Shown: positions 1 through 51,314 of the stretch, piece by piece | How the letters are laid out: every line of letters starts with the position of its first letter | How positions within the stretch are numbered: position 1 is the first letter of the stretch | Origin: Butyricicoccus pullicaecorum DSM 23266 | Lineage (GTDB): Bacteria; Bacillota; Clostridia; Oscillospirales; Butyricicoccaceae | Length of the DNA stretch: 64,000 nt | NCBI RefSeq assembly: GCF_900167005.1 | Contig: NZ_FUXW01000002.1 | Location: 124,001 to 188,000 of the forward strand | Reading direction: 5' to 3' | Program-made: the position numbers and the translations under genes | Notes under the pieces: generated by a model | The model's input: only the letters and a program-made list of their open reading frames with translations | Database searches by the model: none | Told to the model about the DNA's origin: nothing

Positions 1-925
1 CGCCCAGCTCGCTTTCAAACAGCATGTGAATCACGTTGTCACCGTGCTCTTTGCGCAGGGCCTCAAGCTCGCCCTCGGTGTAGAAGTCAAGCAGGGCGGC
101 GTATTCGTCCCGAATATCCTCCGGGACTTTCTTTAGGCTCGGAGCGTCCTCCAACACGAGCGGGTAAGTGCCTCGGCCCCAATCGCCCCAGCCGCCGTAA
201 CCGTATCGGCTGAAACGGTAGCTCTCGATGTACTCGTACTGCGGGAAGTCGGGCTTGGCCGCGTCCGCGACAATTTCCACCACTTTCTTCACCGTAGCGT
301 TTAGATGCTTGCGGTCGATGTACTCGTGCTGGGTGTGGGCGTTGTAGTAACCGGACGAGAGGTTCACCGCCGCTACGCCGAGCGCGGGAGCGAGGAGAGA
401 GATGTCGCTGAACGAACCCCATTCCGTTTCAAACCCCTTGCTCGTGATGTACTCCTCAAACTCCGGGTTATCGCAGTCGTAGTAAACGGCGTCGTTCCTG
501 CCCTTGCGGTCAATCTCGACCAGCATTTTCAGGCTTTCCAGCTCTTTCTTTGGGAGTTTCCCTTTCTGGAAACGGGTGCAGAACGCGCTCGCACCAACGC
601 CCCCAACTTCCTCATCACAGGTGAACAGCAGCCACGGCTTTACCGCAGACTGCTCGTAGACCGTCACGAGGGCGTAAACGCCGCAGCGGTCATCGCCGCC
701 GATTCCCTGCGGGGACATCAGGATGCCGCCGTTCTGCGTCTTGCAGATGTGCTTCACAGGGGTCTTGTGAACCGTGTCGAGGTGAGCCACCAGCATAATC
801 GGGGCCTCTCCGCGAACAAGGATATAACTGTTCTTGCAAACCGTCGTGCGGCCTTTGAACCGGTCGCACAACTTGGAAAACAGTTCTTTCTGGGTGGGCA
901 TCAGGAAATCTTCTAACTTTTTCAT
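1..925 (-). CDS. M20/M28/M42-like zinc peptidase (3' end outside window)
   Basis: Open from an ATG at 925 to the window edge with no stop (308 codons visible). The product has the layout of a co-catalytic zinc exopeptidase: AHLDTVHK near residue 47 (metal His/Asp), GIGGDDRCG near residue 74 (bridging Asp) and CDEEVGGVGA near residue 104 (catalytic Glu pair); a later AHTQHEY segment could supply the last metal His. No signal peptide is seen, so it should act in the cytoplasm. The start overlaps the upstream stop as ATGA, so it is translationally coupled to the Cys-rich protein gene. Substrate unknown; a phage role in peptide or amino-acid salvage is a guess. Confidence 0.75.
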   Translation of the reverse strand, partial: MKKLEDFLMPTQKELFSKLCDRFKGRTTVCKNSYILVRGEAPIMLVAHLDTVHKTPVKHICKTQNGGILMSPQGIGGDDRCGVYALVTVYEQSAVKPWLLFTCDEEVGGVGASAFCTRFQKGKLPKKELESLKMLVEIDRKGRNDAVYYDCDNPEFEEYITSKGFETEWGSFSDISLLAPALGVAAVNLSSGYYNAHTQHEYIDRKHLNATVKKVVEIVADAAKPDFPQYEYIESYRFSRYGYGGWGDWGRGTYPLVLEDAPSLKKVPEDIRDEYAALLDFYTEGELEALRKEHGDNVIHMLFESELG

Positions 926-2598
926 ACCGCTTCGTCCTCCTCTTTCTCGTCGATGACGGCTCCGCACTCAGGGCAGGTCCCGTCTTCACATCTCTCAATC
1001 ATCGTGTCGCAGTGCGGGCAGATTTCGTAAGAATCCATGCAATCCTCACAGACGTAGGCGTGGTCGCCGTCACGCAAGGTAACGAACGTCATTTCCTCTC
1101 GGATGTGGTACTCACCGCAGCCCTCGCACTGCTCGTAATATCTGTCGCGGCAGTCCTCGCAGACAAGAACCTCATCGCCACGGGCGTTCACAACCTCCGT
1201 CATATTGTCCGTGTGGTGATAATCCTCACATTCGTAGCACTCACTGCAATACTCATCGCGGCAGCTGTCGCAGTAATATCGGTCGTCAATTTCTGTGATG
1301 CAGTCGTTCGGCCAATACTCCCCGCAGCACTCGCAGTAGGCAAAGTTCTCATCGCGGCAGTCCTCGCAGACCTCGATCCAATTACCGCGTCTGTCTCTGA
1401 CGGAATACAATTCCTCGTCAACATATCCCTCACAGCACTCGCAGTAATTACCGCCGCGACCGTCCTTGCAGTCCTCGCAATAAACTCCGTAGCTTGTCTC
1501 GCAGCCGCAGGAAACGCAAAGGCCGTAGCTCCCGACAACGAGGCTTCTGAAATCCTCCTCGTGGTCGGCGCGGATGCTCACCTTGCCGTCGAAGTTCTCG
1601 TATTCCCAATCGGGATAGCCGCCGAACCCGTCTCCGCGCTCAACGCAGAAACTCTTTTCTCCAACCGTCGGATAGGTCTTCCACAGGTTCGGAACATTTT
1701 CCAGCATCGAAATCTCGCGCTGAATGAGGTCGCGGTACAGCTTGGAATCCTCGCTGGCCCCGTAAACGCCCCCGGAGGTGTTATACATCCGGCTCTGCAA
1801 AAGCAGCCCGTTCCCCGGTTTGTATGCGAAAACCTGCCGTGTGGTCTTGCGGTTGTTCAGGGTTTCCTTGTCGGCGGGGTCTGCCACGGTGAACGCGATG
1901 AACGAAACCTTATCCCGCGCATAGCCCGTGCAGCCGTTGTTGTACTCGTACTCGGTCGAGTTGAACGAATGGCAGCTCGTCAGGGTCGTACCGCGATGGT
2001 CGCCTTTCGGATTGCTCATCGTGATGAAATGCGCCGGGTTGATGGAGACGTACAGCTTGAACCCGATTTTCTTCGAGGTCAGCTCGTCCGCAAACTGCGC
2101 GTACAGCCTCTGGAAATCGCTGCCCGCCGTTTCATCCGCAACGCCCAGCGCCTGACAAAGCGCCTTGAAAACGCGGCTCTTTTTCTTGTTCGGGGCGTAG
2201 GCTTTCGGGGCAAGCTGCTTGATGGCCGCGATACCCTGCTCCTCGTAATTGGGGTCATAGAAAAACCGAATAGCCTCATAAATGAGGTTTCGGTTGTCCG
2301 TGCGGTAAATCGCCTCGCTCAAGATGTCAGTCCCCAGCGAGTAGATCCGGTCGGGGTCAGGGTCGTGCGTTCTGGTCCCGTTGATAACCAGAGCGTCAAG
2401 ATTGGCGTCCCACACGGGAGACTTGCTGAACAGCTCTCGCAGCTCCTGCTTCGCATAGCAGCTGTCGGACGCAAGCTGATTCACAAAGTTCGCTGTGCAA
2501 TCGTCCATAACGCTCGTCTGGTCGGTGTGCTTGCCGTAATCGCTGATAGCCTGCCAGATATTCTGTTTCGTGCGCTCAATGAGTTCACTCATGTCCAT
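922..2598 (-). CDS. Cys-rich multi-zinc-ribbon phage protein, function unknown
   Basis: 558 residues. The first 350 or so have no motif I recognise. From about residue 355 to the end there is a run of CxxC knuckles (CVSCGC, CEDC, CECCEG, CEDCRDE, CECCGEYW, CDSC, CSECYECEDY, CEDC, CEGCGEYH, CEDC, CPHC, CPECG), enough for five or more zinc sites spaced roughly every 40 residues. The tail is very acidic (DEKEEDEAV). The start follows GAGGAGG with a 10-base spacer and overlaps the upstream gene by 14 bases. A zinc-scaffolded nucleic-acid or protein-binding role is inference only. Confidence 0.8.
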   Translation of the reverse strand: MDMSELIERTKQNIWQAISDYGKHTDQTSVMDDCTANFVNQLASDSCYAKQELRELFSKSPVWDANLDALVINGTRTHDPDPDRIYSLGTDILSEAIYRTDNRNLIYEAIRFFYDPNYEEQGIAAIKQLAPKAYAPNKKKSRVFKALCQALGVADETAGSDFQRLYAQFADELTSKKIGFKLYVSINPAHFITMSNPKGDHRGTTLTSCHSFNSTEYEYNNGCTGYARDKVSFIAFTVADPADKETLNNRKTTRQVFAYKPGNGLLLQSRMYNTSGGVYGASEDSKLYRDLIQREISMLENVPNLWKTYPTVGEKSFCVERGDGFGGYPDWEYENFDGKVSIRADHEEDFRSLVVGSYGLCVSCGCETSYGVYCEDCKDGRGGNYCECCEGYVDEELYSVRDRRGNWIEVCEDCRDENFAYCECCGEYWPNDCITEIDDRYYCDSCRDEYCSECYECEDYHHTDNMTEVVNARGDEVLVCEDCRDRYYEQCEGCGEYHIREEMTFVTLRDGDHAYVCEDCMDSYEICPHCDTMIERCEDGTCPECGAVIDEKEEDEAV

Positions 2599-3043
2599 TT
2601 TCTTTTAACCTCCTCAGCATTCCGTCGTTGATGTAATTCGCAAAGATCCAGTTGCGGCAGGTTCTCTGCCGGCGGGTGAAGTGTCCCGGCGGGTTCGGGA
2701 CGTAGCTCTGGAAATCAACCCGCTTGGCGTCCGTAATCGTCAGCCGGATATTGGCGTTGTCCACGAACACCGTCTCGCCCGGAGCGGGAATGAACGCCAC
2801 GTGTGTGTTCTGGTGGTAATTGAACCCCGCGCTCAACCCGCAGAGGTAATACGCGACCGCTTTGGGATTCTCTTTCACGTCGATGTCGATGAGCGCGTGG
2901 GGCTGGTGCAGGGTCCCGTGATAGACCCTGCTGTCCCGATTGCCGATGAAACACTCGGCGCAGCATTTGTAGATGTTCACGGCCTGAATGTCCCTCAGCC
3001 AAAAGAACTCGTGGTATCGCTTAACTTCCAATGTCAGGTGCAT
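2585..3043 (-). CDS. Unnamed phage protein family, copy 1 of 3 (CCxxC / CRNWIFANY)
   Basis: 152 residues. Belongs to a family with two further members here, at 16,644-17,078 and 50,412-50,882. Shared landmarks: FFWLR near residue 13, CCAECFIG near 28, YYLCGLSAGF near 66, NTHVAF near 80, and near the C-terminus a block with P-PG-FT--QR-CRNWIFANY followed by DGM. The invariant Cys residues (CC..C, LCGL, CRNW) suggest a metal or Fe-S site, but this is inference. No signal peptide or membrane segment. It lies upstream of, and overlaps, the Cys-rich protein gene. I do not recognise a named family. Confidence 0.85.
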   Translation of the reverse strand: MHLTLEVKRYHEFFWLRDIQAVNIYKCCAECFIGNRDSRVYHGTLHQPHALIDIDVKENPKAVAYYLCGLSAGFNYHQNTHVAFIPAPGETVFVDNANIRLTITDAKRVDFQSYVPNPPGHFTRRQRTCRNWIFANYINDGMLRRLKENGHE

Positions 3044-3468
3044 TATTCAGCCTCCTTTTTCTTTCGCCCGCGCTTCTTCGGCGCGGGTTTTTCTTTGGTC
3101 TTTTTCGTAACCGGCTCGCTGACCGCCCAGCTCAACTGGACCTTGAAGCTGCCGTCGCCCATCCGCTCGATGGTGCAGTTCCAGCCGGCGCCATCGGCGA
3201 CCATCTCGTCCTCCTCGCGGTTGGTGCTCGCCGCAGCGTCCTGGATTTTCGCCAGCATCTCGTCAGCGACGATTTGCAGCGCCTCCGCAGCCTTGAGATA
3301 TTCGCCCAGCCAATAGGCGGCTTTCTTGTAGCTGCGGACGGTGTAGGTCGCCTCAGCTTGGAGGCGGCCCGTCCCGATCACGATGTCCATGACGTTCTCG
3401 TGCTCGACGAAATTCGCCTGTCCGGGTTCGTGAACCTTGACCCAACGGCCCTGTTTCAACTCTGCCAT
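3043..3468 (-). CDS. Hypothetical protein with Lys-rich tail
   Basis: 141 residues; starts after AAGGAGG with good spacing and ends within one base of the copy-1 gene start, so it heads or shares that operon. The middle is helical and contains KKAAYWLGEYL. The last 20 or so residues are almost all Lys, Arg, Pro and Glu (KKRGRKKKE), a disordered basic tail typical of small nucleic-acid-associated proteins. No catalytic motif seen; function unknown. Confidence 0.75.
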   Translation of the reverse strand: MAELKQGRWVKVHEPGQANFVEHENVMDIVIGTGRLQAEATYTVRSYKKAAYWLGEYLKAAEALQIVADEMLAKIQDAAASTNREEDEMVADGAGWNCTIERMGDGSFKVQLSWAVSEPVTKKTKEKPAPKKRGRKKKEAE

Positions 3469-16236: not shown

Positions 16237-16647
16237 ATGGACGGGTTCGGAGAACGACTTAGACGGTTGAGAAAAGACTGCGACATCACACAGAGCCAGT
16301 TGGCAGAAGTCATCGGCGTTGTGCCGTCCGCAATCGGGAAATACGAGCGCATACCGCAGGCGTTCCCGAGCGTGGAGGCGTTGATAAAGATAGCCGACTA
16401 CTTCAATGTGAGCATCGACTATCTGCTGAGAGGGACGCAAACCGTCCCTGCCGTTGAGAACAATATCAGCGGCCAGCTAACAAACAGCCCATTCATCCAA
16501 GCCAACCACGGAGGCGTGGTGATTAACGGAGAGCAATCCATTTCGCCGGAGGCGATGGAGCTGCTGCATATCTACGAACAGCTGAGCGGCAGGGAGCGGT
16601 TAAAACTGCTTAACTTTGCCGTCGAGTTAGAGGAGGGTACAAAATGA
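16237..16647 (+). CDS. XRE-family repressor (CI-like)
   Basis: 136 residues. N-terminal HTH (DITQSQLAEVIGVVPSAIG) with the usual YFNVSIDYLL end at about residue 64, followed by a Gly/Asn-rich linker and a short helical C-terminus (LSGRERLKLLNFAVEL), as in many Firmicutes phage repressors lacking a peptidase domain. Ribosome site AAAGGAGG. Its stop overlaps the ATG of the next gene (ATGA), so repressor, unnamed protein and integrase are translationally coupled. Confidence 0.88.
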   Translation: MDGFGERLRRLRKDCDITQSQLAEVIGVVPSAIGKYERIPQAFPSVEALIKIADYFNVSIDYLLRGTQTVPAVENNISGQLTNSPFIQANHGGVVINGEQSISPEAMELLHIYEQLSGRERLKLLNFAVELEEGTK

Positions 16648-17078
16648 AAGTATCACTGGACATTAAAAAGAAGTGCGCATTCTTCTGGCTGCGGGCAATC
16701 CGCTCCGCACGTATCGACAAATGCTGTGCGAAATGCTTTATTGGCGACGCCTTTCACGAGATATTCGAGGGGACGCGCTACAAAGACAAGGCTCATGTGG
16801 AGCTGGACATTGAACCGGACGCAAGGGTAAAAGCCTACTATCTCTGCGGGCTGAGCAACGGCTTTAAGTATGACGAGAATACGCACGTGGCTTTCGTTCC
16901 GTGCGAGGGACAGAATATTGAGATTGAAAATGACCGGATTCGGCTGGTGATTACGGATGCTCGCCAGATTGACTTCCAAAGCTACCAGCCCCACCCAGAG
17001 GGCGAATTTACCGAGGAGCAGCGCACCTGCCGTAACTGGATCTTCGCCAACTACCTGTTAGACGGGATGCCGCTGTGA
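16644..17078 (+). CDS. Unnamed phage protein family, copy 2 of 3
   Basis: 144 residues. Same landmarks as the other two copies: FFWLRAIRSARIDKCCAKCF near residue 13, AYYLCGLSNGF, NTHVAFVP, a DFQSY-P-P-G-FTEEQRTC block and CRNWIFANYLLDGM. Overlaps the repressor gene by ATGA and the integrase gene by GTGA, so it is made with the lysogeny/integration genes, a different context from copies 1 and 3. No membrane or secretion signal. Function unknown; Cys conservation hints at metal binding. Confidence 0.85.
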   Translation: MKVSLDIKKKCAFFWLRAIRSARIDKCCAKCFIGDAFHEIFEGTRYKDKAHVELDIEPDARVKAYYLCGLSNGFKYDENTHVAFVPCEGQNIEIENDRIRLVITDARQIDFQSYQPHPEGEFTEEQRTCRNWIFANYLLDGMPL

Positions 17079-18478
17079 GACGGGCAGCCCTCTATATCCG
17101 CGTTTCCACGCTGGAACAGGCACAAGAGGGCTACTCCGTAGGAGAGCAACGGGAGCGCCTGATTGCGTACTGCAAGGCGCAGGATTGGCTCATAGCGGAC
17201 ATATATGTGGATGGGGGCTACACAGGCAGCAACCTGAACCGCCCCGGCATCCAAAAGCTGATGAGCGAGACAGAGAAGTTCGATGTGGTGCTGGTCTACA
17301 AGTTGGACCGGCTCTCCCGCTCGCAGCGGGACACACTGTATCTCATCGAGGAGATATTCAGGCCGAACAAGGTGGATTTCGTCTCCATGCAGGAGAGCTT
17401 CGATACCTCGTCCCCGTTCGGCAAAGCCATGATAGGTCTGCTTGCGGTATTCGCCCAGCTGGAACGTGAGCAGATAAAGGAGCGCACGTGGATGGGGCGA
17501 GTGGCTCGTGCCAAAACCGGGCTTCACCACGGAGGCGGGAACATCCCTATCGGGTATGACTACGAGGACGGCAAGCTCATCGTAAACCCATACGAGGCAG
17601 AACAGGTTCGGAAGATATATGAGTGGTATCTTTCCGGTTCGTCACTGAAAGCAATAACCGATAAATTGCAGGACGCGGGGTACACGAACAAGTACAGCAG
17701 CTACAATTCGTGGTCGAGCGTGAGAAACATCTTGGAGAATGAAACCTATATCGGGCGTCTGCACTTCGGAGATGTCGTTGTGGATCACGCGCATGAAGCG
17801 ATAATAACGGAGGAACAATTCAATGCCGCACAGATATTGCGTGGAAAGCGCAGAGAGCAGTTCGGGAGCCACGCTTTCCAATCCAAGCACGTGCTGACCG
17901 GACTTCTGTTCTGCGGACACTGCGGAGGCCGGTACTACCTGCGCAACACGGGGAAATACTCTTATTATGCCTGCTACTCCCGAACAAAGCAGATGAAGAA
18001 CATGATAAAGGACCCGAACTGCCAGAATAAGATATGGCGGGCGCAGGACTTGGAGCCTATCATTGAGGAAAAGATACTGGCGCTGCTGCGCAATCCAAAG
18101 ATTGCAGAGGAGCTTGCCGCCGGCAAGCCGAAAGCCGCAGCCCCGGTAAGCAAGAACACTGATATTGAGCGCCGCATCCGTGAGATAGACCGTCAGATCG
18201 GAAAGCTGATGGAGCTTTATCAGCAGGATGATATACCGCCCGAGCTGCTCGGTGAGAAGATAAACCGGCTGTACGGCGAGAAAACCGCATTGGAAAACTC
18301 CATCGCCCCGGTCGAGGAAACCAATGCTATGCCGCTCGATTTAGTGGCCGAGCTTATAACCAACGCTGCGGAAATATGGGACTTCGCCGATGAGAACCAG
18401 AAACGGCGCATCCTGCAAAGCCTCATATCCCGAATTGTCCTGACCGACGACCAAGTTGATATTGAGTGGGCGTTTTAG
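17075..18478 (+). CDS. int: Large serine recombinase (phage integrase)
   Basis: 467 residues. Resolvase domain: YIRVSTLEQ (nucleophile Ser near residue 11), QREGL-type helix, KLDRLSRS (catalytic Arg residues), and LLAVFAQLEREQIKERT. A recombinase domain follows (about 150-255), then a zinc ribbon beginning LLFCGHCGG and a coiled coil (IREIDRQIGKLMELYQQDD). This is the full architecture of phage integrases that insert without accessory factors other than a directionality factor. GTG start coupled to the upstream gene. It lies between early and lysis genes, where attP would be expected, yet far from the apparent prophage edge at 54.86 kb. Confidence 0.95.
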   Translation: MRRAALYIRVSTLEQAQEGYSVGEQRERLIAYCKAQDWLIADIYVDGGYTGSNLNRPGIQKLMSETEKFDVVLVYKLDRLSRSQRDTLYLIEEIFRPNKVDFVSMQESFDTSSPFGKAMIGLLAVFAQLEREQIKERTWMGRVARAKTGLHHGGGNIPIGYDYEDGKLIVNPYEAEQVRKIYEWYLSGSSLKAITDKLQDAGYTNKYSSYNSWSSVRNILENETYIGRLHFGDVVVDHAHEAIITEEQFNAAQILRGKRREQFGSHAFQSKHVLTGLLFCGHCGGRYYLRNTGKYSYYACYSRTKQMKNMIKDPNCQNKIWRAQDLEPIIEEKILALLRNPKIAEELAAGKPKAAAPVSKNTDIERRIREIDRQIGKLMELYQQDDIPPELLGEKINRLYGEKTALENSIAPVEETNAMPLDLVAELITNAAEIWDFADENQKRRILQSLISRIVLTDDQVDIEWAF

Positions 18479-44049: not shown

Positions 44050-45519
44050 TCATCCAAAAGAGAAGCCGAACTCCGGTTTCCCGTTTTCTAACTCCAAATA
44101 GGCGTTCGCCGAGGCGTCCACCATATCTTTCAGCTTGCCGACGGGGAAGTTTTCAAGCTGCCTGAAATAGTCATCGTTCCAGTCAGCCATCTTCACGTCC
44201 ACGTTACCGGCAAGCCATTGAGAGGAGAAAGGCTCGGCGCGGGTCACTTTGTCCCCGCTTTCCAGTGAGGTTGTCACGGTATAGCCGCCGAGCATCCGAA
44301 CAAAGCTCTGTGCTTGGTCTTTGCCTGCCTGTCCGGGGTCCTGCGGCAGCCGAACTGTGACGTTGCCATAAAGCGCATTGTCGCTGGCAGCGGTATTCAG
44401 AATGAGCTGACGCACATCAGCGCCATTCTCACGGACGTTGATGACATCAGCAACGAATACACGCCCATTCTTCCGTTTGCCAAGCAAAACACCGGCGGTA
44501 TAGGCGCTTTCGTCGCCCCGCCGGTTGGTGCGCATGGCCTGCGGCATACCCTCCAACTCGTCCATCTCGCCGGGGGCTGTGGCAGCCAAGTCCCATGCTC
44601 GCACCCACTTGACAACATCGGTCGGGGTGGAGCGGAACATCTGTCCGACTTTGGAGCGTTTGAAGTAGTGGCCCGCAGACCGCCTGATTTTCCAGTTACC
44701 ATTGAGCAGCTGTTCTTGGTCGAACTCGGACATGGCTTTCAGTGCGCCGATGTAGCCGGGGTCGTGTTTCATCATGGCCGCGTTGTCCGTCAGCTTTGCG
44801 CTGATGAACGACACGGATTTTACTTCCTCCATTTCCTCTGGGCTGTATAGATGAAACTCCTCATACAGCTGTTGCGGTGTGTCAGCCCAATGGATGATGT
44901 TGTTCCTGCGGATGAAGTAGCGCAGCTTTCCGCATCTGCTTTCATCGGCGTACCCTGTTTCCGGGTCGATCCACCAGTCGATGAACCGAGCCACCCAGCT
45001 TTCGCCGTCGGGGTTGCAGGTCGCTCGAATGTAGGGGCGGACCCCACAAGTCGAACGGTTACGGGAGAACATATAAAAGAACTGGCTCTCCGTGAAATGG
45101 ACAAGTTCGTCAAACATTAGGAGCGGTATCTGGGAACCTTGCCAGTTGTATTTCTCCTTTTCGTAGAACATGTGAGCGAATGTGACCTTTGCGCCAGACT
45201 GAAATCTCCACTGGACGTTCGGCGTGAGAACGCTGGACGCCCCCAGATGCGGGTATATTTCTTGGCTCGTGGCGTAAAGACCACCGGCGCTCATAATTTG
45301 CGGACGGGACTGCCGGAAAATGACTGCCTCGAACAGCTTGTTGTCGATGTGTCTCAGGCACTCAAGCAGGAGGGCGTAGGTCTTGCCGCCGCCAGCCGCG
45401 CCGCCGTAAATGCAAATATCAGCGGGGGAGCGCAGAAACATTTCCTGCTTGCCCTGCTGAGGCCGAATAATAATTGGTTTGTTACTGGTTTTTTCCGTCT
45501 TTTTTCTCACGTGCGTCAC
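44050..45519 (-). CDS. terL: Terminase large subunit
   Basis: 489 residues. ATPase: Walker A CIYGGAAGGGKTYALLLE near residue 35, Walker B LMFDELVHF; motif III follows. The nuclease half has RAWDLAATAPGE and a downstream RLPQDPGQAGKDQAQ segment (metal-binding Asp residues). GTG start; a second in-frame GTG three codons on is also possible. Overlaps the small-subunit gene. Confidence 0.95.
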   Translation of the reverse strand: MTHVRKKTEKTSNKPIIIRPQQGKQEMFLRSPADICIYGGAAGGGKTYALLLECLRHIDNKLFEAVIFRQSRPQIMSAGGLYATSQEIYPHLGASSVLTPNVQWRFQSGAKVTFAHMFYEKEKYNWQGSQIPLLMFDELVHFTESQFFYMFSRNRSTCGVRPYIRATCNPDGESWVARFIDWWIDPETGYADESRCGKLRYFIRRNNIIHWADTPQQLYEEFHLYSPEEMEEVKSVSFISAKLTDNAAMMKHDPGYIGALKAMSEFDQEQLLNGNWKIRRSAGHYFKRSKVGQMFRSTPTDVVKWVRAWDLAATAPGEMDELEGMPQAMRTNRRGDESAYTAGVLLGKRKNGRVFVADVINVRENGADVRQLILNTAASDNALYGNVTVRLPQDPGQAGKDQAQSFVRMLGGYTVTTSLESGDKVTRAEPFSSQWLAGNVDVKMADWNDDYFRQLENFPVGKLKDMVDASANAYLELENGKPEFGFSFG

Positions 45520-45931
45520 CTACCTCCGAATCTCTCTCAGGCAGGTAGATCTGAACTTGCGGCTGAACAGAAACCGGTGTGCCGGTTATCTTCGCCTCGA
45601 CCGCTTTTCGGTCGTTGAAGAAATCACCGCCGTAGACTTTGAGCGCATAAATGATAGCGGTCGTGTCCCCACTGGACACCCGCTCCATTAACTTGTTTTG
45701 GCACATCGCCACAACAGACAGGCGCCCCGCTTTGATTGCCTTTTCCAAAGCGGGGTGCTCCTTTTGGAGTTTTTGCAGCGTCCGTCGCGTGATGTCAAAT
45801 ACGTCGGCAATCTCCTCCATAGACTTGCCCTGCATAGACAGAGACTGGATGATGGCGAGATTGTTTTCTACCTCACCGGCTTCTACCCACTGTTCAAACA
45901 AGTCCTTTCTCTGACGCTTGGCATCAGACAT
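45482..45931 (-). CDS. terS: Terminase small subunit
   Basis: 149 residues. An N-terminal HTH (MQGKSMEEIADVFDITRRTL, then LQKLQKEHPALEKAIKAG) binds the packaging site; the rest is a helical oligomerization region and a charged tail ending in Lys residues. Located immediately upstream of, and overlapping, the large subunit gene. Confidence 0.88.
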   Translation of the reverse strand: MSDAKRQRKDLFEQWVEAGEVENNLAIIQSLSMQGKSMEEIADVFDITRRTLQKLQKEHPALEKAIKAGRLSVVAMCQNKLMERVSSGDTTAIIYALKVYGGDFFNDRKAVEAKITGTPVSVQPQVQIYLPERDSEVGDAREKKDGKNQ

Positions 45932-47318
45932 ACCTCTCCGCTACCTTTTCGAGCAGCTCGCGCATCAGACCACCGTGCTTGTTGTGCTTAAAGCCGCCGG
46001 GGTACTCGATGTTCAGCTCTTTTTCCAGATACTCCTCGTAAACTTCCGTCGGCAACTGCTTGGGTAGCGAGCAGGCGCAGTAGATGTAGCCAGCGTTGCA
46101 GGCGAGTACCGCTACACTGTCGAAGTAGTTTTCGAGGAGGGCGACAAAGCTCTCACGGGTGTGGAACTTCTGCTTGAAAACGATGCCGTTTGTCACGCCG
46201 AGGGTGTAATTCTTGTCGTCCAGATACCAGAGACAGTCACCAGCCCCGGCAGACAGCTTCGTCTTGTCGTATGCCTTTTCAACGTAGGCAAGGTTGCGGG
46301 TGCAGGTAATCAGCGTACCCGTGGATTTCAAGACGGCGTTGCAGGTCGTAAGCACGGCCTTTTCAAACTCATCGTCCACTACGGAGTTGATAACCGCCTC
46401 CAACACGCAGTAGTCAAACAGCCCGTGGGCCTTGACCTGCTTCTCGGCGTTGAGGATGTTGGCGATGATGCCTTTCATATCCAGCTTGTTCGCGCCTTTC
46501 ACCATCAGGGACGGCTCGTAGGCGTGGATATTGTAGCCCTTAGACTTGAGCATCTTCGGGTAAGCCATTCGGCCCGCGCCGATGTCGATAAGGCTGTCCG
46601 ACTTCTGCAAGCGGGGGATGACATACTTCTCATACAGAACAGAGGCGTTGGATTGCCGGCCATCGGTACTCAGGCGCTTAGGCTGCGCCAAGAACTGGTG
46701 GTAGGTCTTAACGCCGAGGTTGTCGAAGTTGTACTTGCCGTACTCTATGCCCATGCACTCAAGGAACTCGGCAACGTCCTCGTTCGGGATAGCATAGCTC
46801 AGAACGCCGTAGCCCAGCTTCTTGGAGCAGTAGGCGTATTCAGCGTTAAGAATGACATTCCCATCCCCGTCGGTCACGACGCTGCCCCATTCTCCGTAGC
46901 GGGACATCAACTTCGTGATTTCGGAGCAGATGAGCACATTCTTCGGCTCGCTCTCAATGTGTACCTTGTCGGACGGGCAGTAGTGGTAGCCGCCCACCGT
47001 GAACTCCTCAAGGCGAACGGAAGTCTTGCTCGTCTCGATGGAGTTGTGCATGAGGTTGAACAGGATCTCGTCCTGCAAATTCGGGCTATTGATTCTGATG
47101 CACGGCAGATATTCCAGCCCAATCGCCGTCGCAGCTTTCTTTCGCTGATGGCCGGCGGTAATCACGTTATTGGTGGCGTTGACGATGAGCGGCTTCACCA
47201 TACCGAAACGGCGAATGCTGTGCTGCAACGCCTCTAACGCCTCCGGGGTAATGGAGCGGGGGTTGTACTCAGACCCCGTGACCTCCCCGATAGGCACTTT
47301 CTCTACGAAATCAATCAC
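45924..47318 (-). CDS. ParB-domain protein fused to class I methyltransferase-like domain
   Basis: 464 residues from GTG. Residues 1-90 are a ParB N-terminal domain (YNPRSITPEALEALQHSI, ITAGHQRKKAA). From about 235 a Rossmann SAM-binding fold appears: SLIDIGAGRMAYPKMLKSKG is motif I and HAYEPS is the acidic-end strand. No DNA-methylase (D/N/S)PP(Y/F) motif is visible, so the substrate may not be a DNA amino group. Coupled to the next ParB gene and to the small terminase gene. Confidence 0.82.
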   Translation of the reverse strand: MIDFVEKVPIGEVTGSEYNPRSITPEALEALQHSIRRFGMVKPLIVNATNNVITAGHQRKKAATAIGLEYLPCIRINSPNLQDEILFNLMHNSIETSKTSVRLEEFTVGGYHYCPSDKVHIESEPKNVLICSEITKLMSRYGEWGSVVTDGDGNVILNAEYAYCSKKLGYGVLSYAIPNEDVAEFLECMGIEYGKYNFDNLGVKTYHQFLAQPKRLSTDGRQSNASVLYEKYVIPRLQKSDSLIDIGAGRMAYPKMLKSKGYNIHAYEPSLMVKGANKLDMKGIIANILNAEKQVKAHGLFDYCVLEAVINSVVDDEFEKAVLTTCNAVLKSTGTLITCTRNLAYVEKAYDKTKLSAGAGDCLWYLDDKNYTLGVTNGIVFKQKFHTRESFVALLENYFDSVAVLACNAGYIYCACSLPKQLPTEVYEEYLEKELNIEYPGGFKHNKHGGLMRELLEKVAERYV

Positions 47319-48174
47319 GGTTCTCCACTCCTTTCAGAAGATAGTCGGCAAAGCTGCCGCTCAGGATTGCACCGGAATCAATGTACTCCTGATACTTGGC
47401 GTTCATGCGGTCAAGCTCCACCTGAGAGATGAAGAACGACACGTCGCCAAAGCGGAACTGGCAGAACGGCAGGACCGCCTTAGATTCTTTTTTCTTAGGC
47501 TCGCCGTCGTCAGCAGCGGGAGCCACGCTCTCCACAGCAGGAGCAGCGGGGCTGTCGGCAGTCGCAGGCGCGGGAGCAGGGGTGTCGGCATGGCTCACAG
47601 GTTCGTGGTACGAAACCTCCGGTGCGCCAATTTCATCATCACCGCCCTCAACTGCATCATTTTCCGCACTGATGATGGAGTTGCTGTCGATTGTGTGGAC
47701 GGTAGGTTTCTTGGGCTTTGGCCTTTCGTTGACGCCCATAAAGTTGAACGCGGGGATTTTGATTTCGGCCTGCTCAGGCTCGATGTCAAATACCTCCGTA
47801 GTCAGCTCAAAGCGTTCCAGCAAGAGCTGGTTTTCGTCGAGCGTCAGGTCAACGAGGGAAAGTTCCTCCTTGAGCTTCTCGAAGTCCCAATCGCTGTATT
47901 CGCTGGTCTTGTTGTCCACCAGACGGAACAGGTTGATCTGCTCATCAGTCAGCTCGTCCGCTACGATACAGGGGACAGTCTGAATACCCATCTCGCGGCA
48001 GGCGCGCACACGAGTGTGGCCGGCGACGATGGTGTAATTCATGTCCACAACAACAGGGAACAGGAAACCGAACCGCTCGATACTGTACTTGACCTTTTCA
48101 ACCGCGAGGTCGTTGTTGCGCGGGTTGTTTTCGTAATCTCTCAGTCGAGAGACGGAAATCTCTCTGATATTCAT
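47311..48174 (-). CDS. ParB-domain protein 2
   Basis: 287 residues. N-terminal ParB/Srx-like domain: YENNPRNNDLAVEKVKYSIE, IVAGHTRVRACREMGI, and LFRLVDNKTSEYSDWD. A Pro/Ala/Glu linker (about 170-220) separates it from a small C-terminal domain (FGDVSFFISQVELDRMN) that recurs at the end of ParB-domain protein 3 in a related form (FLIFGNNELPITEDEYARL), so the two share a domain pair. ATGA overlaps on both sides. Confidence 0.85.
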   Translation of the reverse strand: MNIREISVSRLRDYENNPRNNDLAVEKVKYSIERFGFLFPVVVDMNYTIVAGHTRVRACREMGIQTVPCIVADELTDEQINLFRLVDNKTSEYSDWDFEKLKEELSLVDLTLDENQLLLERFELTTEVFDIEPEQAEIKIPAFNFMGVNERPKPKKPTVHTIDSNSIISAENDAVEGGDDEIGAPEVSYHEPVSHADTPAPAPATADSPAAPAVESVAPAADDGEPKKKESKAVLPFCQFRFGDVSFFISQVELDRMNAKYQEYIDSGAILSGSFADYLLKGVENRD

Positions 48175-48698
48175 TCTGCCTCACCTCCTGTCAGGAACAT
48201 GACAAAGCCCAGATAGGTTTTGTTCTTGCTGATGTAGTCGTCGTAAACCGCTTTCAGGCGGGCGTACTCGTCCTCGGTGATAGGCAGCTCATTGTTGCCG
48301 AAAATGAGGAACTTGTTGTCCTTGAAGAACTTGCGGTCACGGTTCGGGGTAAAGAACGTGGTCTTGAAGTCAAGGCCGATGCCGCTCAGCTCCTGATGCA
48401 GCTTGCCGACATCCCACGTAGAATACTCGTGGCTCTTATTGTCGATGATACGAGCCAGCTTTGCGTCCTCCTCGGACAGATTCTGAACGATGCAGGGTAC
48501 TTCCTCCATCCCCAGCTGCTTGGCAGCTTTCAGGCGGGTATGCCCCGCGATGATGACGTTGTTCGGGTCAATCGTGATGGGGTTCAGGAACCCAAACTCA
48601 CGGATACTCTCGGCGACTTTTGCCACGCCCGCGTCATTCCGTCGGGCGTTTCCCTCATACTCGATGAGGTCGTCAACCCTCTTGTAGACAATCTCCAT
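48171..48698 (-). CDS. ParB-domain protein 3
   Basis: 175 residues; start at 48,698 (MEIVYKRVDDLIEYEGNARR) after AAGGAGG. ParB core IIAGHTRLKAAKQLGMEEV and ARIIDNKSHEYSTWD, then a C-terminal small beta-helix-helix module. First of three adjacent ParB-domain genes before the terminases. Such phage ParB-like proteins are often tied to DNA modification; no catalytic claim is made. Confidence 0.85.
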   Translation of the reverse strand: MEIVYKRVDDLIEYEGNARRNDAGVAKVAESIREFGFLNPITIDPNNVIIAGHTRLKAAKQLGMEEVPCIVQNLSEEDAKLARIIDNKSHEYSTWDVGKLHQELSGIGLDFKTTFFTPNRDRKFFKDNKFLIFGNNELPITEDEYARLKAVYDDYISKNKTYLGFVMFLTGGEAE

Positions 48699-48724
48699 GT
48701 TTCGTCCTCCTTGTAACTGAGCAT

Positions 48725-48760
48725 AAAAAAAGGGAGCTGCACACACTCGTACAGCTCCCA
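48725..48760 (-). terminator. Intrinsic terminator after SAM synthetase gene
   Basis: On the minus strand GGGAGCTG, 12-base loop, CAGCTCCC, then a run of seven T. It separates the SAM synthetase operon from the ParB-terminase operon. Confidence 0.9.
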
Positions 48761-48779
48761 TGTTTTACTGTATTAGGTT

Positions 48780-49574
48780 TTAGAACAGGCCCCACTCGGC
48801 GAACGCCTCGAAGCCTCCCGCGTCCTTGATGAACTTGCGGGCGATTTCCACGATTTCGTGGTAGGGCTTTCCGTCAATCTCATCGTCTCCGATGGCGCAG
48901 CACAGCTCCACCGGCTTGCCGGTTTCCTGTGCCTTGAGAAAAGCGTAGATGTTGACGGACACATCAGCTTTGGACAGGTCCTTGCCATGCAGCCCACCAC
49001 CGGTCACAGAATCAGCCATATCGGAGCCGAGCTTGCGGTTGGTGGCGCCTGTGTCCACGTCCGTACCGCCAGTCCAATCGCCGAGCGGGTTGATTTCGGC
49101 GGTGGGGTACAGCTGCTCGATGTCAGCCCTCGCAGCGTTGCTCTGGCAGATGATGAGCTTATCCCCGCTCAGAATGTATTTTCCGTCGCAGGGGTACTTC
49201 TGGTAAATGTCGCGGGCAATCGCGGAGAGCGTCTTCTGCTCGTCCGTGAGCGGCATTCCCTTGAAGATGCCGTTATCGCCACAGCGGAAACCGGCCTGCT
49301 GGTTATCAGCGAGGTGGGTGTCCTGCGGAACGATGCAGAGGTCGATTTGCACGAACCCCGCAATACGGTGGATGGCATTGTGGATCGCCCTCAGCACCTC
49401 TGGCCGGAGCATGGGGGCGGAAGTCTCAACGATGGCGTGGCACACACCATGCCCGATGAGAACCTCAACTGCAACTTTGGGGTCATCCTGAACCTGATAG
49501 GCCAAGTCCACGATAGCGCCGGCAATCCTGTCGGCGATTTTGTCCGGGTGGGACGGGTTTACTTTCTCAATCAT
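48780..49574 (-). CDS. metK: Phage-type S-adenosylmethionine synthetase
   Basis: 264 residues, about two thirds of a bacterial MetK. Starts MIEKVNPSHPDKIADRIAGA (ATP-binding HPDK motif), then VEVLIGHGVCHAIVET, QQAGFRCGDNG in the middle, and NPLGDWTGGTDVDTGATNRK followed by the glycine-rich VTGGGLHGKDLSKADV, corresponding to the GGPxGDxGLTGRK and GGGAFSGKDPTKVD motifs. Predicted to make SAM from Met and ATP. Short forms like this are known in Clostridia phages next to methylase or ParB genes. Operon with DUF1848 and unnamed copy 3. Confidence 0.88.
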   Translation of the reverse strand: MIEKVNPSHPDKIADRIAGAIVDLAYQVQDDPKVAVEVLIGHGVCHAIVETSAPMLRPEVLRAIHNAIHRIAGFVQIDLCIVPQDTHLADNQQAGFRCGDNGIFKGMPLTDEQKTLSAIARDIYQKYPCDGKYILSGDKLIICQSNAARADIEQLYPTAEINPLGDWTGGTDVDTGATNRKLGSDMADSVTGGGLHGKDLSKADVSVNIYAFLKAQETGKPVELCCAIGDDEIDGKPYHEIVEIARKFIKDAGGFEAFAEWGLF

Positions 49575-49578
49575 GGTA

Positions 49579-50415
49579 TCAATTCCTTTGCTTGATTTTT
49601 TCGTTGCCGTTCAGCGGAGGCCCAAGCAGGTCACAGTCCGCGTCAGGCGGGTCCTGAACGTAGCCGTAGTGGTTTGCGTAACAATAGGCGCAACCGTTGC
49701 GGCAGGTGCTGTATGCGCCAATATCGACGCTCTCAACGCACTGGCACAGCCCGCGCTGATTGCGGTCTTTCGGTTTGTCAACGCCGAACATCTTGCCGTC
49801 TACGCAGCTGGAATGGGGCAGCCCCAGTTCCTCCGCACAGGAGGAGAGGACAATCCCGTGCTGGGCGGCTATCTCGGATAGCTGCTGCGCCAGCTCTGTC
49901 TGCTGCTCTGTTGTGAGCGGCTGGATATTCAGCGGTCTGAGGTCTACCGTGCGGTACGAATCCACGAAACTCATAACGGCCTTTGAGGTGTAGCCCTCCA
50001 ATTCCTCCGCGATTTTCGTGAACGCCCGAATGTGGTAGTCCCAAGTGTAGCGGTCATTCAGGAATACCGGGTCATATCGCCAGATGGCTTTATCAGCCCC
50101 GATTCTCTTGAACGCCGGTATCACGACCTCATGCTTGTCGGGGATGTTCTTCTCAACGTCCCGACCATAGGGTGTGATGGTGTACTGGAAATAATATTTG
50201 AATGCGTCCAGCTCGTGAATCCTGTTGAGCATAGGCGCGGCATTCTTAGTCCAAAAAACGAACCCGTCTACTTTGTCGGGCGTGAGTGAAACACGCCCGA
50301 CTTGTAGAGGGTTGTATGGGTTTCTAAGGAGGACAAATCCTTTCCCAACACGGTTGTAAAACCACTCGGAAAACAGTGCCGGGATGTCAGTCCGCCTGCT
50401 TGCGCTAACGATCAT
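49579..50415 (-). CDS. DUF1848 protein (radical-SAM-like)
   Basis: 278 residues. Typical DUF1848 start IVSASRRTDIPALFSEWFYN, FWTKNAAPMLNRI, and the C-terminal Cys cluster CVESVDIGAYSTCRNGCAYC with YANHYG. The family is predicted to bind an Fe-S cluster and SAM, though its reaction is unknown. Lies 4 bases before metK and overlaps the upstream unnamed copy 3 by ATGA, so SAM production and a possible SAM-using enzyme are made together. Confidence 0.87.
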   Translation of the reverse strand: MIVSASRRTDIPALFSEWFYNRVGKGFVLLRNPYNPLQVGRVSLTPDKVDGFVFWTKNAAPMLNRIHELDAFKYYFQYTITPYGRDVEKNIPDKHEVVIPAFKRIGADKAIWRYDPVFLNDRYTWDYHIRAFTKIAEELEGYTSKAVMSFVDSYRTVDLRPLNIQPLTTEQQTELAQQLSEIAAQHGIVLSSCAEELGLPHSSCVDGKMFGVDKPKDRNQRGLCQCVESVDIGAYSTCRNGCAYCYANHYGYVQDPPDADCDLLGPPLNGNEKIKQRN

Positions 50416-50882
50416 AACGGCATCCCATCCTTTAGGTAGTTTGCGAATATCCAGTTGCGGCAGGACCGCTGCTCTTTGGTGTAGTTCCCCGGAGGGTTCG
50501 GCACGTAATCCCAGAAGTGGATGCGGCGGGCATTCGTGATGTGCAGCTTGATTCTGTCGTTCTCAACTCTGACTTCGGAATTGCTGTCAGGCACGAATGC
50601 CACATGGGTGTTCAGCTCCCACACAAAGCCGTCGCTCAAACCGCAAAGGTAGTATGCTTTGGCGTGTGGGTGCTGCTTGACGATGATGTCAACGACGGCG
50701 TTGGACTTGTGCAGCGTTCCGTAATAGACGCGGTTGTCCTTGTCGCCGATGAAACATTTTGCGCAGCACTGCGATATATCCACGTTGCGGATGTCTCGGA
50801 GCCAGAAGAAGTTGCACTTCTTCAAAATCTCCAAGTGCAAGTGCATGGGCGCGTGCTTAATTATAAAATCCGACGGTATCAT
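50412..50882 (-). CDS. Unnamed phage protein family, copy 3 of 3
   Basis: 156 residues; the start at 50,882 has AGGAGAG 7 bases upstream, though homology with the other copies begins at an internal MHLHLEILKK. Shared landmarks: FFWLRDIRNVDISQCCAKCF, AYYLCGLSDGF, NTHVAFVP, YVPNPPGNYTKEQRSCRNW and ANYLKDGM. Closest to copy 1. Operon with DUF1848 and metK genes. The link of this copy to a predicted Fe-S/SAM enzyme and the conserved Cys make a metal-related role worth testing. Confidence 0.85.
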   Translation of the reverse strand: MIPSDFIIKHAPMHLHLEILKKCNFFWLRDIRNVDISQCCAKCFIGDKDNRVYYGTLHKSNAVVDIIVKQHPHAKAYYLCGLSDGFVWELNTHVAFVPDSNSEVRVENDRIKLHITNARRIHFWDYVPNPPGNYTKEQRSCRNWIFANYLKDGMPL

Positions 50883-50906: not shown

Positions 50907-51314
50907 TCAATGACAGCTTTGTGACACGACGGCCACCTCCGCTATCTCGGGGTTTTGCGCCTGAAAAAACTCCCCAAGCGCGTAAAGTATCGTCTCACAA
51001 GCCCCCGGCAGAGCAGGGTGGAATGCAAAGCCACACCCGGACATCGCGCTCTTGACCGCGACAAACTCACGGTCAAAGCCGCTCACACGGGTTCTGGTGG
51101 CTTTCATTCTGCGCCCGTGGTCATCAAAGCTCTCAAACAGGGCGTGGGAGAGCGGGTTGCCCGCGCTCACTGATTCGCCCACCGTCAGCTTTGCGAGGGT
51201 GATTTCATAGCCGCCCGGAATCGAACCGGTCAGTGTGAACGATGAGACGTTCGTTACATAACTCGGCAGCGGATTCAGCCCGTCGTAGGGCTGCGGCTCA
51301 AAGTTTTTAATCAT
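50907..51314 (-). CDS. Hypothetical phage protein (135 aa)
   Basis: Starts MIKNFEPQPYDGLNPLPSYV after AAGGAGG; alpha/beta with SMSGCGFAFHPALPG-like sequence near the end (AMSGCGFAFHPALPGACET). Overlaps the upstream membrane-protein gene by 8 bases. No family recognised. Confidence 0.65.
   Translation of the reverse strand: MIKNFEPQPYDGLNPLPSYVTNVSSFTLTGSIPGGYEITLAKLTVGESVSAGNPLSHALFESFDDHGRRMKATRTRVSGFDREFVAVKSAMSGCGFAFHPALPGACETILYALGEFFQAQNPEIAEVAVVSQSCH

Follow-up and report, generated by a model that had tools for sequence, protein, structure and literature searches.

A phage protein family present in three copies in a Butyricicoccus pullicaecorum prophage and genetically linked to ParB-methyltransferase fusions

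A prophage of Butyricicoccus pullicaecorum DSM 23266 carries three homologous copies of a small-protein gene, here termed A, B, and C, which arose by triplication, hold orthologous positions in related phages, and evolve under purifying selection. They belong to a phage family that has no entry in the libraries and literature searched and that is genetically linked to genes encoding a fusion of a ParB_N domain with a methyltransferase domain (ParBMT), a kind of enzyme already known but unexplained. We tentatively propose, with a confidence that falls somewhat short of even, that the family is an accessory subunit or cofactor protein of ParBMT, likely serving DNA modification or protection, and that its three copies answer to three transcription programs.

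Three copies and their gene neighborhoods

The window analyzed here is a stretch of 64,000 nucleotides from a 544-kb contig. The genes around the copies are those of a phage, encoding an exonuclease, an ssDNA-binding/annealing protein, a polymerase, a primase/helicase, an integrase, a holin, an endolysin, a portal protein, and terminase. A preliminary description of this DNA had proposed three related genes lying in three different operons of one phage, and each part of that proposal was confirmed. The three genes and their neighbors are as follows.

922-2598, minus strand: Zn558, a protein of 558 aa with a Cys-rich C-terminus; overlaps the end of A and lies downstream of A in all relatives
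2585-3043, minus strand: copy A, 152 aa, intact open reading frame; clade A in trees
3043-3468, minus strand: g3468, an uncharacterized protein; upstream neighbor of A in relatives
16237-16647, plus strand: Cro/C1-type (RstR-like HTH) repressor; overlaps the start of B by 4 bp
16644-17078, plus strand: copy B, 144 aa, intact open reading frame; structure model with pLDDT 93.8
17075-18478, plus strand: large serine recombinase (integrase) with Resolvase, Recombinase, and Zn_ribbon_recom domains; overlaps the end of B by 4 bp
44050-45519, minus strand: large terminase subunit (Terminase_6N/6C)
45482-45931, minus strand: probable small terminase subunit, from an HTH_23 match and its position beside the large subunit gene
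45924-47318, minus strand: ParBMT, a ParB_N and Methyltransf_23 fusion; likely functional partner of the family
47311-48174, minus strand: ParB2, a ParB_N domain protein by profile match
48171-48761, minus strand: ParB3, a ParB_N domain protein by profile match
48780-49574, minus strand: compact MetK-like S-adenosylmethionine synthetase, 264 aa (PF00438)
49579-50415, minus strand: DUF1848 protein (PF08902, E 8e-89); overlaps the end of C by 4 bp
50412-50882, minus strand: copy C, 156 aa, intact open reading frame
50907-51314, minus strand: g51314, an uncharacterized protein; upstream neighbor of C in relatives

The three proteins share the blocks FFWLR, CCA-CFIG, YYLCGL, NTHVAF, and CRNWIFANY and are 51 to 59% identical in pairwise comparisons from end to end; copy C has a short N-terminal extension, which its orthologues have too. 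E-values among the copies of ~1e-53 to 1e-55 exclude chance similarity, and a frameshift artifact is likewise ruled out by the full-length identity, the E-values, and the dN/dS ratios given below. The genes occupy three strand-separated transcription units and are the sole copies of the family in the 3.27-Mb host genome, all in one contig region. Other single contigs (IMGVR_3300013414_000359, JAFUZE010000001, and CANQTW010000002) hold A, B, and C in the same contexts, so the claim that a single phage carries all three stands.

Each copy overlaps the gene downstream of it, by 14 bp for A and Zn558, by 4 bp for B and the serine integrase gene, and by 4 bp for C and the DUF1848 gene. Zn558 has numerous CxxC motifs in the C-terminal half and, as a conserved block, SCHSFNST...GC..YA.D; searches of Pfam, PHROGs, NCBIfam, and PDB gave no match for it. 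Downstream of C, genes for the DUF1848 protein, MetK, two ParB_N proteins, ParBMT, and terminase follow on the same strand. The DUF1848 protein carries a CX3CX2C motif, read from its sequence, and is radical-SAM-like by that motif. In the phage MetK, which lies within the ParB/terminase cluster, the N-terminal SAM synthetase domain alone was detected; the equivalent cluster of another genome (G407, L102) has a full-length MetK. Three tandem ParB_N genes (45924-48761) directly precede the terminase genes, the last being the methyltransferase fusion, ParBMT, which matches ParB_N and a class I SAM-methyltransferase.

Age, selection, and loss of the copies

Across related phages, which come mainly from gut and rumen, A, B, and C each have their own neighbors and make up separate clades, and purifying selection acts on all three. 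The contexts are fixed: g3468 and Zn558 for A, the repressor and serine integrase for B, and g51314 and the DUF1848 protein for C. In a tree of 37 lineage members, three groups coincide with these three gene contexts. When 15 outgroup sequences were included, support was 100/99 for B, 87/97 for C, 84/23 for A, and 100/100 for the whole lineage; B is thus firmly one group, and C and A less firmly so. Moreover, all 37 lineage members have Cys at position 27, where the other 71 aligned sequences all have His, which points to one ancestor and a single His-to-Cys change before the triplication.

Among orthologue pairs, median dN/dS per group was 0.06 to 0.11, with a maximum of 0.20 among measurable pairs. 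Synonymous sites between A, B, and C are saturated, which rules out recent duplication or gene conversion. Given the low ratios within groups and the saturation between copies, A, B, and C are old, selected genes. The preliminary description had taken the retention of three diverged paralogues as a sign of distinct, useful roles. Retention under selection stands, with dN/dS of at most 0.20 and each copy fixed in its own operon, but distinct roles do not follow, for all three copies keep every family-wide invariant residue and B is dispensable in some relatives. The kept invariants suggest a single activity, common to A, B, and C and placed under three controls, at least as much as they suggest three roles.

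The evidence on B comes from three arrangements of its slot. In one relative (G102), whose integrase is 79% identical to that of the prophage, the repressor is joined directly to the integrase, without copy B. In another (G116), the slot is occupied by an Ada_Zn_binding (PF02805) protein standing alone (L307:2013-2318, minus strand). In a third (L028, 1-708; IMGVR_UViG_3300028833_004807), copy B carries an in-frame fusion to the Ada_Zn_binding domain; the junction codon is GTA, which leaves the family part without its own start codon. Thus, B is dispensable and its slot is exchangeable with an Ada-type domain. Ada_Zn_binding is nevertheless a separate domain, and the family gives no match to PF02805. 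A further phage has an Ada_Zn_binding gene ~1.1 kb upstream of the repressor (L306:660-962).

Several other loci were of note. A distant phage carries two tandem family copies ~2 kb from ParBMT-like genes (L164:4989-6383), a second, independent duplication. A decayed prophage remnant (L044/L046; WRLU01000016.1, G061) has the last 39 residues of C joined to the end of the upstream neighbor, and it is flanked by DUF1848 fragments and, by eye, HicA/HicB-like open reading frames; with the end of the C gene fused to that of its neighbor, it was rejected as an intact variant. L043 was rejected as well, as similarity stops after about residue 105.

The wider family and its linkage to ParBMT

No model in Pfam-A, PHROGs v4, or NCBIfam 20 matches the A, B, or C protein. 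When 38 diverse members were compared with Pfam, PHROGs, and NCBIfam, no catalogued family matched more than one member, and the best stray match (5e-5) concerned a single member. PADLOC gave no family model for 37 lineage members, and its single weak Cmr1 match was dismissed. A PDB sequence search returned immunoglobulin-like and other stray matches only, with no relative. Five diverse members used as queries matched no annotated isolate in INPHARED, copy B matched nothing in PLSDB, and searches of the literature on phage DUF1848 and ParB-methyltransferase partners turned up no account of the family. These results agree with the earlier statement that no known family comes to mind.

AlphaFold models of copy B (pLDDT 93.8, pTM 0.87) and of a distant member, L146 (pLDDT 96.9, pTM 0.90), agree in strand order and end in two C-terminal helices, and the family fold is accordingly predicted to be a beta-sandwich plus C-terminal helices. 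Foldseek searches of both models against the PDB gave nothing at E<=0.001. The sandwich part weakly resembles C2-type domains (perforin C2 and Munc13-1 C2B), with a best aligner Z of 5.2 (86 residues, rmsd 4.2) and 4.2 for the second model, values within the noise for this tool. No sequence relation to C2 domains was found, the C-terminal CRNW helices are left uncovered by the alignment, and the family invariants are Cys, His, Asn, and Arg, with none of them an aspartate, the residue of the Ca2+-binding loops of C2 domains. The Z values do not reach the range in which a true match can be told from a common arrangement, and no C2 relation can be claimed. Two BFVD entries have the same full-length fold: A0A8S5L8L5 (Siphoviridae sp. 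ctjfQ5; model-normalized TM-score 0.97, 94% identity) and A0A6J5QSS5 (uncultured Caudovirales phage; model-normalized TM-score 0.79, 24% identity). Both are named "uncharacterized protein" and are members of this family, without function or name.

Iterated profile searches of IMG/VR and genomes gathered distant members and showed the family to be much wider than the lineage of the prophage. In the 109 distinct sequences compared, W15, Y66, C68, N79, H81, C129, R130, N131, and F134 are invariant or nearly so; position 28 has Cys throughout except for a single R, and position 27 is restricted to His and Cys. The conserved Cys/His set is thus [H/C]27, C28, C68, H81, and C129. The exchange of His for Cys at 27 while the other Cys and His stay fixed is a metal-site-like pattern, and we consider these residues a putative metal site. 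Of the earlier suggestion that the Cys point to metal or Fe-S binding, a metal or thiolate site is therefore plausible; nothing indicates Fe-S, and C31 of the CC-CFIG block is replaced by S, T, or A in many relatives.

Outside the lineage of the prophage, the family is normally single-copy. It had been considered that relatives might show one copy and the extra ones be annotation artifacts; the former is true of distant relatives, but in this prophage the additional copies are genuine genes. Among 45 distinct distant sequences, enough flank or a nearby ParBMT allowed 42 to be judged (two loci were cut). In 39 of the 42, ParBMT lies within 150 bp, on the same strand in 34 cases and convergently in 5, where the 3' ends touch; this counts sequences with ParBMT in view, and the figure becomes 39 of 43 if L103 (9398-9811, G358) is included. 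L103 has no ParBMT within ~10 kb and lies beside a Rep-like replication protein, as judged by eye. The other three of the 42 have ParBMT at 0.4 to 2 kb, and most relatives lie directly upstream of terminase genes. In the reverse search, seeded with ParBMT, the family was present at 55 of 80 loci within a 3-kb flank, actinobacterial-type prophages included, a fraction biased upward by a query built from family-adjacent ParBMTs. At least two of the 25 loci without the family (L217 and L222) are of the same lineage as the prophage, with copy C outside the 3-kb flank. The isolates BS-TP3, 613R2, and BtpYZU02 have ParBMT and lack the family, and such true absences make the family optional for ParBMT. 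Altogether, genetic linkage between the family and ParBMT holds in both directions. The linked ParBMTs form 18 clusters at 50% identity, so the linkage does not stem from one recent clone, and the five convergent loci argue against mere co-transcription. In bacterial genomes the family is rare: among 398 sampled from the phylum, the one match was the source genome itself.

The usual neighbor cassette of single-copy members is the phrog_5475 type, a ParB-CTPase fold with Methyltransf_23 (PF02195 and PF13489; PMC12704722), to which the prophage ParBMT is a full-length match. This fusion is the likely partner of the family, not the family itself, and the small protein is undescribed in the available part of PMC12704722. 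That paper reports that Methyltransf_23 fusions of ParB-CTPase folds are enriched in phages, suggests an anti-defense role, and describes ParB fusions with SAM methyltransferases of bacteria as binding ATP. The nuclease and NTPase activities of ParB domains, including a Bacillus cereus ParB-methylase with nicking activity, have been reviewed (PMC5512222).

Candidate functions

The linkage to ParBMT, together with a MetK gene that shares the cluster both here and in G407 and fits a demand for SAM, leads us to the accessory-subunit reading. The small phage protein would act as an accessory subunit or cofactor protein of the terminase-adjacent ParBMT, and the two would modify or protect phage DNA or serve counter-defense. 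A single ancestor, already bearing the H27-to-C change, would have been triplicated in the lineage of the prophage; copy C would have remained in the presumably late operon of ParB, MetK, DUF1848, and terminase genes, copy B would have inserted between repressor and integrase, in the lysogeny operon, and copy A would have been placed in a third operon, one activity thereby being supplied under three transcription programs. We infer expression timing from gene order only. Since the terminase operon holds C, the repressor and integrase genes flank B, A stands by itself, and every invariant is kept, supply under three controls is the simplest reason for three copies. The fusion of copy B to Ada_Zn_binding, a DNA-repair-type domain, in one protein was counted in favor of a DNA-related role. 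Against a subunit speak the phages in which ParBMT occurs without the family, the positions of A and B, neither of which is beside a ParB gene, and L103; linkage near the terminase could also be partly inherited synteny. Each copy may instead have its own partner. In a bolder, quite unlikely version of the accessory-subunit reading, a nucleotide-binding ParBMT and a metal-binding beta-sandwich subunit would form a previously unrecognized DNA-modification complex of phages, and one phage lineage would have acquired three stage-specific isoforms of that subunit (lysogenic, early, and late) that keep its DNA protected during the whole life cycle.

The overlaps of 4 to 14 bp with the downstream gene, pairings conserved across relatives, would also suit dedicated adaptors, A for Zn558, B for the serine integrase, and C for the radical-SAM-like DUF1848 enzyme, the paralogues having diverged for their partners, and clades A, B, and C do have clade-specific surface residues. 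Yet single-copy relatives adjoin ParBMT and none of these three genes, the 79%-identical integrase is joined straight to the repressor, and no copy has given up a family-wide invariant; we regard dedicated adaptors as somewhat unlikely. The near-invariance of C28, C68, N79, H81, C129, R130, and N131 in 109 sequences, with His or Cys alone at 27, and the Ada_Zn_binding domain fused to, or replacing, copy B at its slot would be compatible with a stand-alone Cys/His enzyme or metal-site protein, such as a thiol-dependent transferase or repair protein, acting on a substrate that the ParB-methyltransferase cassette makes or handles, with no complex formed. However, no enzyme fold or family was matched, and the invariant Cys and His may simply form a structural zinc site, which makes such a protein unlikely. 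Finally, the position of most relatives directly upstream of terminase genes could reflect a packaging or virion-associated accessory protein whose link to ParB is inherited gene order, but five convergent loci and several without a nearby terminase still adjoin ParBMT, copy B is in the lysogeny operon, and copy A is outside the structural operon, leaving a packaging role very unlikely.

Phage-enriched ParB-methyltransferase fusions, which have no assigned job, can thus be tied to a linked family of probable partners that the searched catalogues lack and that has a clear signature. Defined residues to mutate, together with a natural experiment in which one lineage has three copies, many have one, and some have none, make the function of the cassette testable.
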